IMG/VR virus record: IMGVR_UViG_3300001848_000583
Span: 1 to 25,785 of that record
Length of the DNA: 25,785 bases
DNA from: a virus
Direction: 5' to 3' (one strand)
Shown: one piece after another, positions 6,320 through 24,990 of the stretch
Layout of the letters: every line of letters starts with the position of its first letter
Numbering within the stretch: position 1 is the first letter of the stretch
The notes under the pieces: model-generated
What the model was told of the DNA's origin: nothing
The model's database searches: none
What the model saw: the letters and a program-made list of their open reading frames with translations, nothing else
Position numbers and translations under genes: made by a program

Positions 6320-7660
6320 ATGTTTCATAAAGATACTTTTTGTATATTGCCTTGGTCATCCATTCAAATAAATCCATCAGGTGATTTTAAAATTTGCGGT
6401 TTTTCTGGAGAAACCGGTGAAGATGGTAAAAGCCTGAATCATGGAATGTGCCTTGATGAAAACGGCAAAACGATGAATGTGATGACACATTCTATCATGG
6501 ATGCTCTGAATAGTGAAACGCACAAAAAGATTAGACTTGCACAATCCAGAAATGAAAGACATCCTATGTGCAAGGTTTGTTGGGACAGGGATGACGCCAA
6601 CAAAAACAACGAAATCTCATCTTCTCTAAGATTTTTCAGATCATTCAAGCAAATTCATGATTTGGAAGGCGTCATCAATTTTGAAAAAGTTTCTGATCAT
6701 TTAACGGAAGATGGAAGCGTAGAACAAATACCAATAAGTCTAGAACTCAGATTGAACAATACTTGTAATATGAAATGCATCATGTGTAGTTCAATATACA
6801 GCAACTTGTGGTATGAAGATGAATATAAATTGTATGGGACCAAAAATATAATTCTTGATGGTAAAATATACAATATAAAACAAGAAAATGGTGTTTGGAA
6901 ATCCGATATGCAAGTTTGGCATGAATCGGAAAATTGGAAAAAACAATTCGAACTAATTAAAAGAAATATAAGACACCTTTATATCATGGGTGGAGAACCT
7001 TTTGTAATTAAAGGTCACGATGAACTATTAGAAAATTTAATTGAATCCGGTTGTTCAAAAAATATCATATTAGAGTATGACACCAATTTAACCGTAATTA
7101 ACAAAAAAATATTAAATAAATTTGAGAATTTTAAAAAAGTTGTTTTGTCTGTAAGTTGTGATGATATTAACGAACAGTATGAATACATCAGATATCCTGG
7201 AAAATTTAATGTAATGACAAAGAATTTGGAATTATTAAAAGAACACGGTATAAAAATTCGTAATCTTTCTACTTGTATTGGAATATATTCAATATATTCT
7301 CCAATCAGAATGTGTGAATACTTTACAAAATTAGGTTACACACCAGAATCTTCTTTATATGGTAAAGAAATGTTTTCTTTGAGATTTTTAAGATGGCCAT
7401 CACATTCAAACGTTGCACTATTACCAAAAGAATTAAAATTAAAAGTTATAGATTTGTATAAAAATTCCAGTTTATCTGAGAGATGGAAAAATTTCTTATG
7501 TGATTATATCGAAAATAATATGAATACATTTTCGGAAGAAGTTTGTGTTCAGTCCGTTAAAGAACACATAAATTATTTGAATAGATTGGACGAAATAAGA
7601 GGCACCAATTGGAAAAAAACTTTTCCAGAAATTGTTGAATTATTGAAAGATTATGTATGA
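6320..7660 (+). CDS. Radical SAM protein with auxiliary (twitch/SPASM-like) cysteines
   Basis: A 446-residue radical SAM enzyme. The [4Fe-4S]-binding motif CNMKCIMC (Cys149, Cys153, Cys156; CxxxCxxC) follows a strand LELRLNNT. YIMGGEPF at 221-228 is the GGE motif that contacts S-adenosylmethionine. An N-terminal block FCILPWSSIQINPSG with KICGF, then CKVCW at 84-88, gives further cysteines typical of the phage twitch-domain radical SAM proteins, which place this auxiliary-cluster-like module before the barrel. Such proteins occur in T4-like aquatic phages with unknown substrates. The stop overlaps the next gene start (ATGA at 7657). Neighbouring PP-loop and hydroxylase genes suggest a shared biosynthetic or modification pathway (inference). 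No clear Shine-Dalgarno precedes the start, only a T-rich leader. Confidence 0.85.
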   Translation: MFHKDTFCILPWSSIQINPSGDFKICGFSGETGEDGKSLNHGMCLDENGKTMNVMTHSIMDALNSETHKKIRLAQSRNERHPMCKVCWDRDDANKNNEISSSLRFFRSFKQIHDLEGVINFEKVSDHLTEDGSVEQIPISLELRLNNTCNMKCIMCSSIYSNLWYEDEYKLYGTKNIILDGKIYNIKQENGVWKSDMQVWHESENWKKQFELIKRNIRHLYIMGGEPFVIKGHDELLENLIESGCSKNIILEYDTNLTVINKKILNKFENFKKVVLSVSCDDINEQYEYIRYPGKFNVMTKNLELLKEHGIKIRNLSTCIGIYSIYSPIRMCEYFTKLGYTPESSLYGKEMFSLRFLRWPSHSNVALLPKELKLKVIDLYKNSSLSERWKNFLCDYIENNMNTFSEEVCVQSVKEHINYLNRLDEIRGTNWKKTFPEIVELLKDYV

Positions 7661-15415: not shown

Positions 15416-16822
15416 TTACACCAATCGGGTGGAACCCATAATCATTCGCATGAATGTTGGTTCATCATTGTGTACGGCAATCTCACTTAACTTAGAAATT
15501 CTTTGTTGCTGATTGTTTTTATTTTGTATTACATTATTTACTGTAGTTTGCGCTTGTTTGTTTGGTACTGATGGTAAATTAGCTGCAACATTTTCTGCCA
15601 TAACTGTATTCAATGCGTTTGATGTTGTGGGCATTGATGCTGCATTTTGTCTGGCTAATCTTGCTGTTTCTGCATCAGTTTCATTAGGCATTGCAGTTGC
15701 GGCTGGTTTAACTGGTTCTGCGCTAGATTTTTTAATTGGATTTGCATTTTCATCCAATCGAATATAACCCTGTTTCTTTTCCTGTTCAGTTAAACCAGTT
15801 TTCTCATCAAAACCAAGTTCTTCAAGATATTTTTTTTGTAAATCACTATCTTTCCAAAATGCAAAAGACTTCTTATTTGAAGGTCTTTCGGAAAGCAATT
15901 TGTCTTTTCTTTTTTGCACAACGTTTTCATCTGATGGTTCTTGTGCTGCCATTATAGCTGCACCTTCAGTTGAAACATCAGCAGCCTTAGATAATCCTTC
16001 TGCTGTTTTTTTGTTTGCTTCCTCTGATGATTGACTAATCAACCAGTAAGCTAAAGCACCGGCAGCTGCCATACCCAAAACTACAGGATTCATAAGAATA
16101 AGTCGGAACAAATTGCTACCTAAAAATTGCAATAGAGGTCCCGCAAGAGAAGAAAGGTTTTTCAACCAAGAAAAAGGACTTAGTGCAGTATCAATTATGC
16201 CTTGTACCATTTCTTTTATTTTCGATAGAATACCTTCAACTAAACCACCAAAATCAAAACCATCTTTTTGTTCCGTTTTTGTCACAGCCTGTGCTGTTGA
16301 TTTACCTGTTTTTAATTTTGTGAGTGCTTCGATAAATTCTTTATGTCGTTTTTCCGATTCAATTTCTCTTTCTTCTTTAAAGTTTTCTTCTTTTTCTTTT
16401 CTTCTGATATCCTTATCAGTAGATGTTTTTAGAAAACTATAAATCTTCAACAGTTGTTCGTTGATACCTTCTATATCACCACCTTCACCAACACCTGATG
16501 TTATTCTTGATGCAGTTCCTTTTCCAGCAACACGAATCGGTCTGTTACGACCAGTAAAATATTCAATATCACGTATATCACGACCCATCAATCTACCAAG
16601 TAAAGCAGGCGCAAGTTTAGAACCACCTGTCAAAAACTTTGCAATATTTAAAGGATCAAACTTTTCTTTGATGCCTTTTATCTTTGACTGTGCTTTTAAT
16701 GATATAGTTCGACCAACCGCTTTAGTGATTGATTTTTCATAGAGTAATTGGTCTGCCAATAAATCGGTTACTTTTGTACCACGAATTCTTCTGGCTTTTT
16801 GATATGTTAAACCTTGATCCAT
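15416..16822 (-). CDS. Putative tail/baseplate-associated structural protein with hydrophobic core segment
   Basis: A 468-residue protein I cannot name securely. The basic N-terminus is followed by AKFLTGGSKLAPALLGRLMG (61-80) and a charged coiled-coil-like block (139-170, RRKEKEENFKEEREIESEKR). A long hydrophobic stretch follows at about 226-263 (LAGPLLQFLGSNLFRLILM, VVLGMAAAGALAYWLI), then a Lys/Gln/Ala-rich tail ending in NNVIQNKNNQQQ and DEPTFMRMIMG. The block at 139-170 and the C-terminal NNV..N...D...F.R pattern recur in the upstream lysozyme-domain protein, so the two are partly paralogous. Hydrophobic and coiled segments and position in the baseplate operon fit a tape-measure-like or hub-associated protein ejected into the host membrane. 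That role is inference. Confidence 0.68.
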   Translation of the reverse strand: MDQGLTYQKARRIRGTKVTDLLADQLLYEKSITKAVGRTISLKAQSKIKGIKEKFDPLNIAKFLTGGSKLAPALLGRLMGRDIRDIEYFTGRNRPIRVAGKGTASRITSGVGEGGDIEGINEQLLKIYSFLKTSTDKDIRRKEKEENFKEEREIESEKRHKEFIEALTKLKTGKSTAQAVTKTEQKDGFDFGGLVEGILSKIKEMVQGIIDTALSPFSWLKNLSSLAGPLLQFLGSNLFRLILMNPVVLGMAAAGALAYWLISQSSEEANKKTAEGLSKAADVSTEGAAIMAAQEPSDENVVQKRKDKLLSERPSNKKSFAFWKDSDLQKKYLEELGFDEKTGLTEQEKKQGYIRLDENANPIKKSSAEPVKPAATAMPNETDAETARLARQNAASMPTTSNALNTVMAENVAANLPSVPNKQAQTTVNNVIQNKNNQQQRISKLSEIAVHNDEPTFMRMIMGSTRLV

Positions 16823-16825
16823 TTT

Positions 16826-18190
16826 TTAACCTTTTGTTACTCGTTCGAAAGCGGATCTATCATCCACTTTAACTGGTGCTGTTTGAGAAGATTGAGAAGA
16901 ATTCACAGTAACATTGTTTATTGTTCTTTCCATGGCACTTTGATCTTTCATACTGTTTTTTGTATCTTTGTTTTCTGTGGACATAGAATCAACTTTTTGT
17001 CCAGTTGTTGGTGTAATTACATTTGGTCCGGTTGTTTGAATTTTTTTACCATTACGAATCATATCAACAATTTTTACTGCACGATTACCTACTTGTTTAT
17101 ACCAAAGACTATCTTTTAATCCATCAGCTGCCTTATCGAAATTACCAGATTCTAAAGCGGCAACTGTATTTTTCCATAAGAGTTCATTATTATTTTTATT
17201 CTTTATTGCGAACCAACTTCCCATATTATATGTCAAATCTATCATAGCTGCTTGACCTGTTTCATTGGCTAAAGCCCAACCAGGAGTTTTCATGGCCATT
17301 GCTTTATGTTTTTCATAATCATCATCAAATAACTTTTGTATTTGTTCATTTGTCATTGCAGGCGTTGTATTATTTTTCTTATCGTTGGGTCCGCCGTTGT
17401 TTTTATATGCTTCGTATTCTGGAGGCAATGATTTGCCGTCACCAATAAGATGGCCAACACCAATGGTCCATAAACCTTTTGTATCTTTATAAGGATAATT
17501 AACAACACCTTCATGTTGCATAATCATTTTTTTAGTTGCAGCTTCTGTTCCGGATGGAATAACAGGTTTAACTGGTTCTACCTTAGGTGTTGGCTTAGTT
17601 GGTTCTACCTTGGCTGGAGGTTTAGGAGCTTCAGGTGGTTTGACAGGTTCGACCTTTGGTTTTGGAATCTCAGCAGGTTTAACTGGTTCTGCCGTTGGCT
17701 TTACTTCCGGCTTTACTTCAGGTTTTGCCGCAGGCTTTGGTGCTTCAGCTTTAGGTGTAGGTTTTGCTGCTTCAGGTTTTGCCGCAGGCTTTGGTGCTTC
17801 TGGCTTTTCAGCTGGTTTAGGTAGTTCTGCTTTTGGTTTTGGTGCTTCAACAGGCTTTTCTACCTGTTTTGCTTTTTGTTCCTGTTTTACTTTCTTTGTT
17901 TCTTTTTCTATCTTTTTCTCGATAGTTTTTTTAGCAGGTCTTTTGACAGTCAGAGCCTTTAATATTTCTCTGTGTCTTTGTTTTTCTAAGCGTTCTTCCG
18001 CTTTACTATTTTTAAGATTATCTTTATATTCTTTATCTCTAAAATCTTCTCTTTGAACAAGCATTTTATGAATGCCAGAAATTATCTCTGTGCTTGAAGA
18101 ATTTGGACCAATAGAATCCTTGGGCTTTCTACTGAATAGGCCCATCATTTTACCAAAAATTCCCTTGCTTTTATCAGATACTTCAGGCAT
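16826..18190 (-). CDS. Tail-associated protein with T4-lysozyme-type (GH24) domain and Pro/Ala/Lys linker
   Basis: A 454-residue modular protein. Residues 1-82 hold a charged helical region ending in RLEKQRHREILKALT, shared with the downstream gene product. Residues about 110-212 are a low-complexity linker of PKPAAKPE-type repeats, like rigid TonB-style spacers. Residues about 214-385 are a GH24 lysozyme: HEGVVNYPYKDTKGLWTIGV places Glu227, Asp236 and Thr242 with exactly the T4 lysozyme spacing (Glu11, Asp20, Thr26), and MIDLTYNMG and NRAVKIVDM fit later helices. The C-terminal tail ends in INNVTVNSS and DDRSAFERV. In T4 the tail lysozyme is the middle domain of gp5; here it sits alone, inside the gp26 operon. 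It is probably virion-borne and locally digests peptidoglycan during injection. Confidence 0.85.
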   Translation of the reverse strand: MPEVSDKSKGIFGKMMGLFSRKPKDSIGPNSSSTEIISGIHKMLVQREDFRDKEYKDNLKNSKAEERLEKQRHREILKALTVKRPAKKTIEKKIEKETKKVKQEQKAKQVEKPVEAPKPKAELPKPAEKPEAPKPAAKPEAAKPTPKAEAPKPAAKPEVKPEVKPTAEPVKPAEIPKPKVEPVKPPEAPKPPAKVEPTKPTPKVEPVKPVIPSGTEAATKKMIMQHEGVVNYPYKDTKGLWTIGVGHLIGDGKSLPPEYEAYKNNGGPNDKKNNTTPAMTNEQIQKLFDDDYEKHKAMAMKTPGWALANETGQAAMIDLTYNMGSWFAIKNKNNNELLWKNTVAALESGNFDKAADGLKDSLWYKQVGNRAVKIVDMIRNGKKIQTTGPNVITPTTGQKVDSMSTENKDTKNSMKDQSAMERTINNVTVNSSQSSQTAPVKVDDRSAFERVTKG

Positions 18191-18379
18191 TTACTTTCTC
18201 ATTCGTTCTTTTAGTTTTCTATTTTCTTCTTCAAGATACTGAATTAACAAAGTCACATAAATGTCCCGTTCCCACGGTATCATATTTTCAAGTTCAGTTA
18301 GACTATATTTGTGGTGTTGTATCAATCCAAAATTAGTCTTATAGTAATTCTTTAAATCATCATAACAAATTAAAATACG
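18191..18379 (-). CDS. -1 frameshift extension of gp26 (tail-chaperone 'T'-like segment)
   Basis: A 62-codon frame directly following gp26 and reading in its -1 frame, ending one codon before the lysozyme-gene ATG (TAAATG). It encodes YYKTNFGLIQHHKYSLTELE followed by NMIPWERDIYVTLL and a charged helix ending KERMRK. The pattern FGLxxHHxYSLxELExMxPWERxxY looks conserved rather than random. There is no usable start codon before the conserved part (the only ATG is inside ENMIPW). It would be made by slippage on TTTTTTC at 18379-18385, giving a fusion of about 302 residues, analogous to lambda gpG/gpGT. The frame and heptamer are seen; the frameshift is inferred. Confidence 0.72.
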   Translation of the reverse strand, partial: RILICYDDLKNYYKTNFGLIQHHKYSLTELENMIPWERDIYVTLLIQYLEEENRKLKERMRK

Positions 18380-19098
18380 AAAAAATTTTCAAGACCCTCA
18401 ACTTCCATGTTGTGTATAAAACCACACTTTGAACATGTCAACATAATGTTTTTCTTCATCTTTGGTAGGTTCTCAAAAAACTTTTCAATCTTTTCAAATT
18501 GAGCCTGGTTTAATTGCTCAATAAATTCCAACAATTCTTCTTTCGTTGTTTCTTTTGCATAATAAAACTGTTCGCCATCATAAATGTATTCAATAGAACT
18601 TGCAATCATATTAAATGTTACATCAGTAACGTTATCAATATTTACAGAATCTTTGATGATGCCAAACTTTGGATATCTCATTTTCACAATAAGTTTATCT
18701 GTAATTTTTATTTCAGGATCAACCTTTTCTTCCCACTCCGGTTTAATTGTGGTAAGATCAATTTTGGTTTCCATAATATTACCACACTCTTTATCACCAA
18801 GATCGTTGTTACAACGGTATTTTGATTCTACCACTTCACCCACGGATTTAGCACGGAGGTTAATGAAGTAATACTCAACATCAAGTATTGGAAAATCGTC
18901 TATATCGATTCCTGGCGTCAGGGTACATACATTTAATATCTCTCTGACATTATATTGTATTGTCTCTGCATCACCGGATTCCATGGCCATCATCAAGTTT
19001 TTTTGTTCCTTGACTAGGAATGGTCGGTATTTAATTTTCTTTCCAGAAAGTGGCAATTCAAGTTCATATGTTGGCACTTCAAGTTTTGGTAAAGCCAT
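18370..19098 (-). CDS. 26: gp26-like baseplate protein / putative tail assembly chaperone
   Basis: A 242-residue protein of the T4 gp26 (T4 baseplate protein) family. The N-terminus LPKLEVPTYELELPLSGKKI followed by KYRPFLVKEQKNLMMAMESGD is the family hallmark. Then come DIDDFPILDVEYYFINLRAKS, a cysteine pair region (RCNNDLGDKEC) and a C-terminal CSKCGFIH, possibly a zinc ribbon. T4 gp26 (208 residues) is described as a hub component. The architecture of this gene plus its -1 extension suggests a chaperone-type role, as for lambda gpG. Strong Shine-Dalgarno (GAGGAG before ATG on the minus strand). The zero-frame protein ends ENFFVF, five codons after the slippery heptamer begins. Confidence 0.85.
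   Translation of the reverse strand: MALPKLEVPTYELELPLSGKKIKYRPFLVKEQKNLMMAMESGDAETIQYNVREILNVCTLTPGIDIDDFPILDVEYYFINLRAKSVGEVVESKYRCNNDLGDKECGNIMETKIDLTTIKPEWEEKVDPEIKITDKLIVKMRYPKFGIIKDSVNIDNVTDVTFNMIASSIEYIYDGEQFYYAKETTKEELLEFIEQLNQAQFEKIEKFFENLPKMKKNIMLTCSKCGFIHNMEVEGLENFFVF
18379..18385 (-). promoter_or_regulatory. Canonical -1 ribosomal slippery heptamer U UUU UUC
   Basis: On the minus strand the gp26 codons read GAA AAT TTT TTC GTA TTT TAA. The last T of AAT plus TTT TTC forms T_TTT_TTC, a canonical X_XXY_YYZ slip site in the correct phase. Slipping by -1 gives TTT TTT CGT ATT and enters exactly the open frame that runs to 18191. No strong downstream stem or pseudoknot was obvious. 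Confidence 0.75.
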
Positions 19099-19112: not shown

Positions 19113-19652
19113 TTAAATGACAAATGTTCTATTGAACCATCTTGTATAAGCAAAAGTTACAGTTAATTTATGATAACCATCAGCAGCCCAATCTAAATCC
19201 ATCTGATTGATGGACATTGGATAACATTCGTAGAAATCAGCTGCATATGTTAATTTGTTTTGATTGTCGTATTGGTTGACAGTCAAGTATGTTGCATAAT
19301 CAGATTTATATTTAAAGTTGTTTGTAAAAGCAGGATTGATGTATTCCATCCATGTATCAAAGATATATTTCTGGTTCATTTCAGAATCAACAATGAATGT
19401 TAAATCTAAATCATTGTATGTTGTTAGATATGGATGTTTTTCGATTGGACCGTATGTTTTTTGTTCTGCCGTTGCAAACGTTCTGCTTGGCAATTGTGCA
19501 TTTTCACAACTGTATTTTAATGTTCTGTTTGCGTTTGGTTGACCAGCAAAAACAGATAATACGGGAGGAATAACAATATTAACATCAAAACGATGTGGTC
19601 TTGCAAGTTCCTTTTTAAAATTGGCTCTGAATTCTGATATGCTTCCTGCCAT
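19113..19652 (-). CDS. T4 tail-tube-superfamily protein (gp54/gp19-like)
   Basis: A 179-residue protein from the ATG at 19652 (an upstream in-frame ATG at 19688 would overlap the previous gene and lacks a Shine-Dalgarno, while AAGGAC stands before 19652). The N-terminus SISEFRANFKKELARPHRFD, the strand pair LKYSCENAQLPSRTFAT, DLDLTFIVDSEMNQKYIFDT with WMEYINP, and the final strand KLTVTFAYTRWFNRTF are typical of the T4 gp19 tail-tube fold. Tube proteins of this superfamily also include the gp54 initiator and gp48 cap. Because it sits in the baseplate cluster rather than next to the sheath gene, gp54 (tail tube initiator) is the better guess, but it is as short as gp19. Overlaps the upstream stop by one base (TAATG). 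Confidence 0.78.
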   Translation of the reverse strand: MAGSISEFRANFKKELARPHRFDVNIVIPPVLSVFAGQPNANRTLKYSCENAQLPSRTFATAEQKTYGPIEKHPYLTTYNDLDLTFIVDSEMNQKYIFDTWMEYINPAFTNNFKYKSDYATYLTVNQYDNQNKLTYAADFYECYPMSINQMDLDWAADGYHKLTVTFAYTRWFNRTFVI

Positions 19653-20272
19653 TATATTGTCCTTATTTGTTCTACTGATTCTTGCCAAACTGTTTTGGCA
19701 CTTTCTTTTTTAAATTGTTGTATTGGTAAATATAACGCAATATCCCACTCTTGTGGTTCAATCGATAGAATTTTGGACCTGATGTGGCTATACAGATATT
19801 TTTTGATACAAGGCCTAAATTCTCTATATCTCTTTGATGAATCTAATATTGGATACGTAATTCTTATTCTTTTAATTTCATCTTCATCATTATAAATGGC
19901 CAACGGCATCAACTTTCTCATAAAATTGATACGATATTTGATTGGCAGATAATGTAGGTTTAAACCAATAAAACCATCTGGTTCTCTTTTCAATGGCATC
20001 ACCAATGGAAAGGTATCATAATATGGCAACTCGGCTTTTGTTTTTGGATTGTAAAAGAAATAGTACAATCCACCAATCAAAAACTTTTGTCTGTCACTTG
20101 CTCGAACATAACGATGTGTTTCTTTTGTCAAAGGTCTAACCATCGTATAAGGATTTCTTAGACTTTGCACTCTTTTCATCAACCAATTCAAAGACTCACG
20201 GCTCATCGTGTTGTATTGAGCCGCCAGTTTTTCGTCTGATAATGTGGTAAGTATAGAAGGTTTTGTAGCCAT
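19652..20272 (-). CDS. Conserved T4-like virion protein, possibly gp2-like DNA end protector
   Basis: A 206-residue protein with a recognisable T4-like aquatic-phage pattern: SLNWLMKRVQSL near the N-terminus, FLIGGLYYFFYNPKTKAELP then YYDTFPLVMPLKREPDGFIG and LNLHYLPIKYRINFMRKL (about 85-135), and a basic C-terminal half (YREFRPCIKKYLYSHIRSKI). Proteins of this type lie beside gp4 in related phages. In T4 the order is 3-2-4-53-5, so gp2 (DNA end protector, a head-completion protein) is a candidate. gp53 is excluded because it is found elsewhere (21767-22366). The name is a context-based suggestion; family membership among T4-like structural proteins is firmer than the specific role. Confidence 0.6.
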   Translation of the reverse strand: MATKPSILTTLSDEKLAAQYNTMSRESLNWLMKRVQSLRNPYTMVRPLTKETHRYVRASDRQKFLIGGLYYFFYNPKTKAELPYYDTFPLVMPLKREPDGFIGLNLHYLPIKYRINFMRKLMPLAIYNDEDEIKRIRITYPILDSSKRYREFRPCIKKYLYSHIRSKILSIEPQEWDIALYLPIQQFKKESAKTVWQESVEQIRTI

Positions 20273-24090: not shown

Positions 24091-24990
24091 ATGGAAAATT
24101 TACCAGACGATTATTACAGTAATACTGGAAAGTATGACATAATCAATTTCAAGGTGGTTGAAAAACTTCCACCTAATTCTTTGTATGCAAAATTAATGGG
24201 TTCACCTGGTGTTCAAAACACACCATCGTTGGCCAGAGGTAACTTGAACAACTCCATCATTCAAGTTATGAATGGTAATCTTGCACACGCCTGTGATTTC
24301 AAATTTATTTTTAATGCAAATGTTGATTTATTTACAGGTTTGACCAATCCAATTACTGCAATTCAAAAAGCAATCAGAGGTGCACAACTAAAAGCAACCG
24401 AAAGACTTAGACAGTTGGTACAAGGTGCAGCGCAAAATTTTAGAAAAGCAGTAGAAGCATTGGTAAATTTAATGGGATTGGATCCTTCTGGCCAAATTTC
24501 TTATTATTTTTCTTTGGGTAAAGATATTTTGAGAAAAGTTAATGAAGCAATTGAAGAAGTTGCTAAAATTACGGAAACTGTACTTGAATGGGTTTTCTTT
24601 GCACAACAGATTCAACAACTAATTAATTGGATCAATAGTTTGCCAGGAAAAATAAAAAATTTGATATTGACTTGTTTGAATAGTTTTACGAATTCAATTA
24701 AAGCTATTGCAAATAACATACAATCTCTACCAAATCAAATTACTGGTGCAACAACAGCACAAATACAGGCAATTGCAAACCAATTTACCGCTGCTGCACA
24801 AACAGCTGCATCTGCCGCACAAGATGGTTTTAACTCAAATAATTCAAATTTACCTGCTGGTGTTGTTGCTGCAATCAAAGATCCGTCAATAGACTTAAAT
24901 AGTTTAGGTACCAATTTTTCTTCTGATTCCGCCAATACAGCATTACAGAATTCGACAAGTACTCAAATGGCACAAATGAAAGCACCTTGA
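24091..24990 (+). CDS. Helical, Ala/Gln-rich hub-associated structural protein
   Basis: A 299-residue protein that I do not recognise as a named family. The N-terminus LPDDYYSNTGKYDIINFKVV and VQNTPSLARGNLNNSIIQVM are followed by long amphipathic helices (AIQKAIRGAQLKATERLRQL; DILRKVNEAIEEVAKITETV) and a hydrophobic segment (VLEWVFFAQQIQQLINWINS). An Ala/Gln/Ser-rich low-complexity tail follows (AAAQTAASAAQDGFNSNN). It lies between the OB and beta-helix parts of gp5. In related aquatic T4-like phages such a segment may be part of a long gp5 polypeptide; here it is free. It is probably a virion hub component. Confidence 0.68.
   Translation: MENLPDDYYSNTGKYDIINFKVVEKLPPNSLYAKLMGSPGVQNTPSLARGNLNNSIIQVMNGNLAHACDFKFIFNANVDLFTGLTNPITAIQKAIRGAQLKATERLRQLVQGAAQNFRKAVEALVNLMGLDPSGQISYYFSLGKDILRKVNEAIEEVAKITETVLEWVFFAQQIQQLINWINSLPGKIKNLILTCLNSFTNSIKAIANNIQSLPNQITGATTAQIQAIANQFTAAAQTAASAAQDGFNSNNSNLPAGVVAAIKDPSIDLNSLGTNFSSDSANTALQNSTSTQMAQMKAP

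Follow-up and report, generated by a model that had tools for sequence, protein, structure and literature searches.

Phage lambda makes gpG as a short tail assembly chaperone and gpGT as a minor -1 long form, the slippage taking place on G GGA AAG, late in the short gene and close to the tape measure gene. Vladimirov, Gautam and Davidson reportedly found frameshifting to be conserved in several T4-like groups and the T4 group to have separate genes instead. The passage of PMC12846349 that cites Vladimirov et al. 2022 refers to poly-T slippery sequences in the TAC-N genes of T4-like phages, and the corresponding passage of PMC10885494, citing the same paper, refers to some T4-like phages with one short gene, one fused long gene and no frameshifting. 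T4 gp26 and gp51 were listed as hub assembly chaperones in a 2010 review (PMC3004832). The TAC locus of Vandenendeviridae and Andersonviridae (PMC12846349) is like the one described below, in that TAC-N carries a conserved GTTTTT slippery motif and an open -1 frame, but it belongs to other phage families and its motif is a different one.

The window analysed here is a stretch of 25,785 nucleotides from an uncultivated phage (IMG/VR record IMGVR_UViG_3300001848_000583). With lambda gpG/gpGT, and with the -1 frameshift conserved among tail genes of dsDNA phages (Xu, Hendrix and Duda 2004), its gp26 gene shares a short form, a predicted minor -1 long form and a slippery site close to the end of the short gene, and it is very probable that gp26 and the -1 frame at its end are one gene for both tail assembly chaperones of this phage (TAC-N and TAC-NC). 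The grounds for this interpretation are the sequence architecture and its conservation, the coding constraint seen in the -1 frame, the fact that T4-type gp51 is an in-frame fusion, and the TAC-like fold predicted for gp26. The features of the locus are collected in the table.

Table. Features of the gp26 locus in the window
Feature	Position	Strand	Remarks
gp26 homologue, zero frame; predicted short tail assembly chaperone (TAC-N)	19098-18370	minus	242 aa
-1 slippery heptamer T TTT TTC	18385-18379	minus	in phase with gp26
-1 frame, predicted C-terminal extension (TAC-C; gp51 of cyanophage annotation)	18385-18191	minus	
Tail tube (gp54/gp19-like) gene, just upstream of gp26	19113-19688	minus	phrog_45, E 1.1e-41
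Pro/Ala-rich protein with lysozyme domain, begins right after the -1 stop	16826-18190	minus	PF00959, E 8.6e-10
GAGGG, possible weak internal Shine-Dalgarno-like element (tentative)	18395-18399	minus	9 nt upstream of heptamer

Profile searches matched the window's gp26 to PF12322 (T4_baseplate, E 1.2e-59) and phrog_150 (gp26, E 4.5e-64). Codons 238-243 of the gene, on the minus strand, read AAT TTT TTC GTA TTT TAA, the stop being the third codon past the heptamer. From the heptamer the -1 frame continues for 62 codons, from CGT (18379) to AAG (18194), and closes with a TAA (18193-18191), straight after which the next gene begins with its ATG at 18190 (TAAATG). Neither ATG nor GTG occurs near its beginning; the first TTG (18325) and the first ATG (18283) both lie well within the conserved domain. 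An in-phase heptamer with a stop three codons on, a 62-codon frame ending at the next ATG and the lack of an upstream start had all been reported in the preliminary description, and each was found to be exact. The predicted gp26-51 fusion comprises 240 + 62 = 302 aa and would contain the junction-spanning peptide ...ENFFRILICYDD.... The probability that a 64-codon frame would be open by chance was p ~0.019 under a window-wide Markov model and p ~0.0008 under a region composition model; the length of the open frame is not conclusive by itself, and conservation is decisive.

The heptamer and the -1 peptide are both conserved in the nearest 80 IMG/VR loci (64-100% identity), with T TTT TTC 9-12 nt ahead of the stop in 80/80. 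In a wider set drawn from IMG/VR loci, isolate phages and further scans, which leaves out KpS110, SKML-39 and Vibrio D509 as lacking the heptamer, an in-phase T TTT TT[C/T/G] was present 6-15 nt ahead of the stop in 177 of 178 distinct gp26 sequences; a look for the heptamer in other T4-like phages had been suggested in the preliminary description, and its bearers span 26-100% protein identity. At the site itself the one exception (L188) does not differ in its DNA from a near-identical relative, but its frame is already off before that point, probably through an upstream indel. Outside the heptamer, gp26 phenylalanine is encoded by 594 TTT and 309 TTC codons. Given this usage, a uniform TTT TTC in 46 clusters (80% identity) has p ~1.6e-30, a value that conveys scale and is not a test: TTT TTT or TTT TTG occurs in about 5 of 82 sequences, and the clusters are related by descent. 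The heptamer with its -1 frame is the rule for gp26/gp51 across Kyanoviridae and in several further T4-like groups, and is not peculiar to the window phage.

The -1 frame was compared beyond the gp26 stop among 26 cluster representatives. Differences at codon positions 1, 2 and 3 numbered 2476, 860 and 6275, and single-base differences comprised 4433 synonymous and 1228 nonsynonymous changes. Together, the third-position bias and the synonymous excess indicate that purifying selection acts on the protein encoded by the -1 frame.

The -1 peptide belongs to the gp51 family: it matched phrog_634 (gp51, labelled ‘baseplate hub assembly catalyst’) with E 2.3e-28, as well as the C-terminus of phrog_150 (columns 231-276, E 1.5e-7), which T4-type gp51 proteins match across its full length. 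Homology to the T4 gp26/gp51 family (PF12322, phrog_150, phrog_634) was thus found for both parts of the window gene. In T4, gp26 (208 aa) and gp51 (249 aa) are separate, divergently transcribed genes whose products share 20% identity over 161 residues and are both covered by PF12322 as full proteins. A profile of 94 -1 peptides matched the C-termini of gp51 from IME13, Phi1 and T4, from residue 197-200 onward, and reported none of the gp26 proteins of T4, Phi1 and IME13. In these three phages gp51 consists of a PF12322 domain and an in-frame -1 domain, joined about where gp26 ends. As the profile matches the gp51 C-termini but not gp26, T4-type gp51 looks like the long form carried in one gene and T4-type gp26 like the short form. 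The T4 genes and the window gene therefore have PF12322 in common, with the extension on gp51; they differ in that T4 has two divergent genes and no frameshift.

It is conceivable that the two frames are a product of chance, or of a sequencing indel that split one long gene, as the gp26-51 fusion does exist as one open frame in T4-type gp51. This explanation was rejected because the arrangement is conserved in independent genomes, the same two-frame layout being found in 178 distinct sequences with isolate genomes among them, and its probability is negligible. Slippage might also occur during transcription of the T run, producing an mRNA subpopulation in the other frame. RNA polymerase can slip on runs of 8 T, and such runs are found in some relatives (HTVC008M and Melnitz-2), but in most members, as in the window, the run is no longer than 6 T, and it is the phase and the tandem XXXYYYZ pattern, T TTT TT[C/T/G], that have been conserved; a transcriptional origin is extremely unlikely.

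Alternatively, the -1 frame could be a small gene in its own right, gp51, translated after reinitiation or from a start codon belonging to it, which is how it is annotated in S-PM2, P-SSM2 and others; in other phage records the region is left unannotated. The start codons bear on this differently in different clades. In the P-SSM2-like clade (L106-L185), an ATG lies within the first 15 -1-frame codons in 74/74 distinct sequences, which fits the 57-aa gp51 annotated there and counts against a frameshift, and both S-PM2 and P-SSM2 have gp51 annotated with an ATG. SKML-39, where the heptamer is absent, has an ATG that overlaps the gp26 stop. However, ATG or GTG was found within the first 15 codons in 0/63 distinct sequences of the window's own clade, 36 of which lack TTG there as well, and the earliest candidate starts of the window fall inside the conserved domain. 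The heptamer is retained in the P-SSM2-like clade even alongside the early ATG, so both expression routes are possible in that clade, and T4-type gp51 is an in-frame fusion. A separate gp51 gene is accordingly very unlikely in the window phage, and in most of the T4-like phages sampled gp51 is probably not free-standing.

The fold of gp26 was predicted with AlphaFold2 from 60 sequences (mean pLDDT 88.5), and solved chains were ranked by Foldseek and then compared with the model using VIA-align. Residues 1-88 of the model matched 3klu (YqbN), a PBSX/skin-type tail protein, with Z 6.9, and the HK97 tail assembly chaperone 2ob9 with Z 6.5, over 84-86 aligned residues. The PICI protein 5ir0 followed with Z 5.0, all three matches lying within residues 1-93, and every other chain was clearly separated at Z <=2.7. 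These values, being under 8, give moderate support to a TAC-like fold for the modelled protein. A search of the PDB with the gp26 model by Foldseek alone returned nothing significant (E ~1 for 2ob9), and neither gp26 nor T4 gp51 had a relative among solved structures when these were searched by sequence. In contrast to HK97 gp13, gp26 is about twice the size and has extra domains that include a CxxC pair; the match to the known TAC fold is confined to residues 1-88. The gp26 proteins of the window's clade keep four cysteines (C96, C105 and the CxxC at 222-225), possibly a zinc site, and marine relatives such as P-SSM2 lack part of this set.

The role of gp26 as a frameshifted tail chaperone, proposed in the preliminary description, is supported by the conservation of the heptamer, the gp51-family -1 peptide, the in-frame T4-type gp51 and the TAC-like fold. 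On this basis, most ribosomes would stop at 18372 and release the 242-aa short chaperone, TAC-N, and a minority would shift back by one base at U UUU UUC to produce the 302-aa TAC-NC, comprised of gp26 and the gp51 domain. If lambda gpG/gpGT is taken as the model, TAC-N would cover the tape measure protein, and the added domain of TAC-NC would bring in subunits of the tail tube.

Elements that might stimulate slippage were also sought. Downstream RNA structure was absent from the window site (z -0.99), which counts against a frameshift, and no conserved downstream structure was detected in an alignment of 27 sequences. In many relatives a GGAGG-like stretch 9-10 nt upstream of the heptamer shows good anti-Shine-Dalgarno pairing, and in 25 of 46 cluster representatives it falls among the lowest 5% of gp26 windows; part of this pairing is accounted for by the conserved VEGL peptide. 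The GAGGG of the window is weak (-6.1 kcal/mol, synonymous percentile 0.66), which also counts against a frameshift. An internal Shine-Dalgarno stimulator was therefore not accepted: compared with other gp26 windows it is enriched in relatives, but not clearly beyond what the encoded VEGL requires, and the copy in the window is weak.

Among the phage records sampled, three, KpS110 and SKML-39 (both Ackermannviridae) and Vibrio D509, carry a -1 extension but lack an XXXYYYZ heptamer (L094 3770-3970, L098 3710-3900, L097 3630-3850), which counts against a frameshift. Vibrio D509, like SKML-39, has an ATG over the gp26 stop. A TTTTCA ahead of the stop is common to the gp26 homologues of Ackermannviridae and Vibrio D509, and no relatives came up in IMG/VR when it was scanned with gp26 of Vibrio D509. 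The extension in these three phages would appear to be made in another way or by an unrecognised slip site. It is a tentative and rather doubtful suggestion that T4-like phages make one chaperone pair in three ways: by frameshifting at the kept heptamer (most), from separate genes (T4), and in a third, heptamer-less group (Ackermannviridae and Vibrio D509-like) that keeps the -1 extension. The third mode is perhaps single-tRNA slippage at the shared TTTTCA, or TAATG coupling, and may be new, on three records only.

By all indications, the gp26/gp51 genes are the same chaperone genes already identified in T4-like phages (Vladimirov, Gautam and Davidson, Virology 2022, 566:9-15), as far as that paper is represented in the works that cite it; so represented, its T4-like TACs have the same short and long forms as the window phage, which is an uncultivated relative. 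Because that paper, as cited, covers the TAC genes of T4-like phages, the present finding is an accurate rediscovery, made independently and in a new, uncultivated phage, and is not new in kind; the chaperone idea itself is already in print. The gp26 and gp51 proteins look like short and long tail chaperones, and the labels ‘baseplate hub subunit’ for gp26 and ‘hub assembly catalyst’ for gp51 look misleading in many phage records. The role of T4 gp26 and gp51, an old question, becomes directly testable.

The order of tail tube gene, gp26 and -1 frame in the window is that of other T4-like phages. In HTVC008M and Cr30, annotation and profile searches place tape measure-like genes one small gene past gp26 and its -1 frame. 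Profile searches of the window identified no clear tape measure gene adjoining gp26; the next genes after the -1 frame encode the lysozyme-domain protein and then a 468-aa protein without a family match. The lysozyme-domain gene and the gene that follows it (15416-16822, minus) share a charged stretch that looks similar by eye (REDFRDKEYKDN.../RRKEKEENFKEE...), the second having a hydrophobic segment, and the two may be tape measure or hub pieces. On the strand opposite gp26, a 299-aa protein (24091-24990, plus) has a weak match to a tape measure family (phrog_1535, E 2e-8). Elsewhere in the window, a radical SAM protein (6320-7660, plus) has a weak QueE-like match and is perhaps the product of a nucleotide modification gene.
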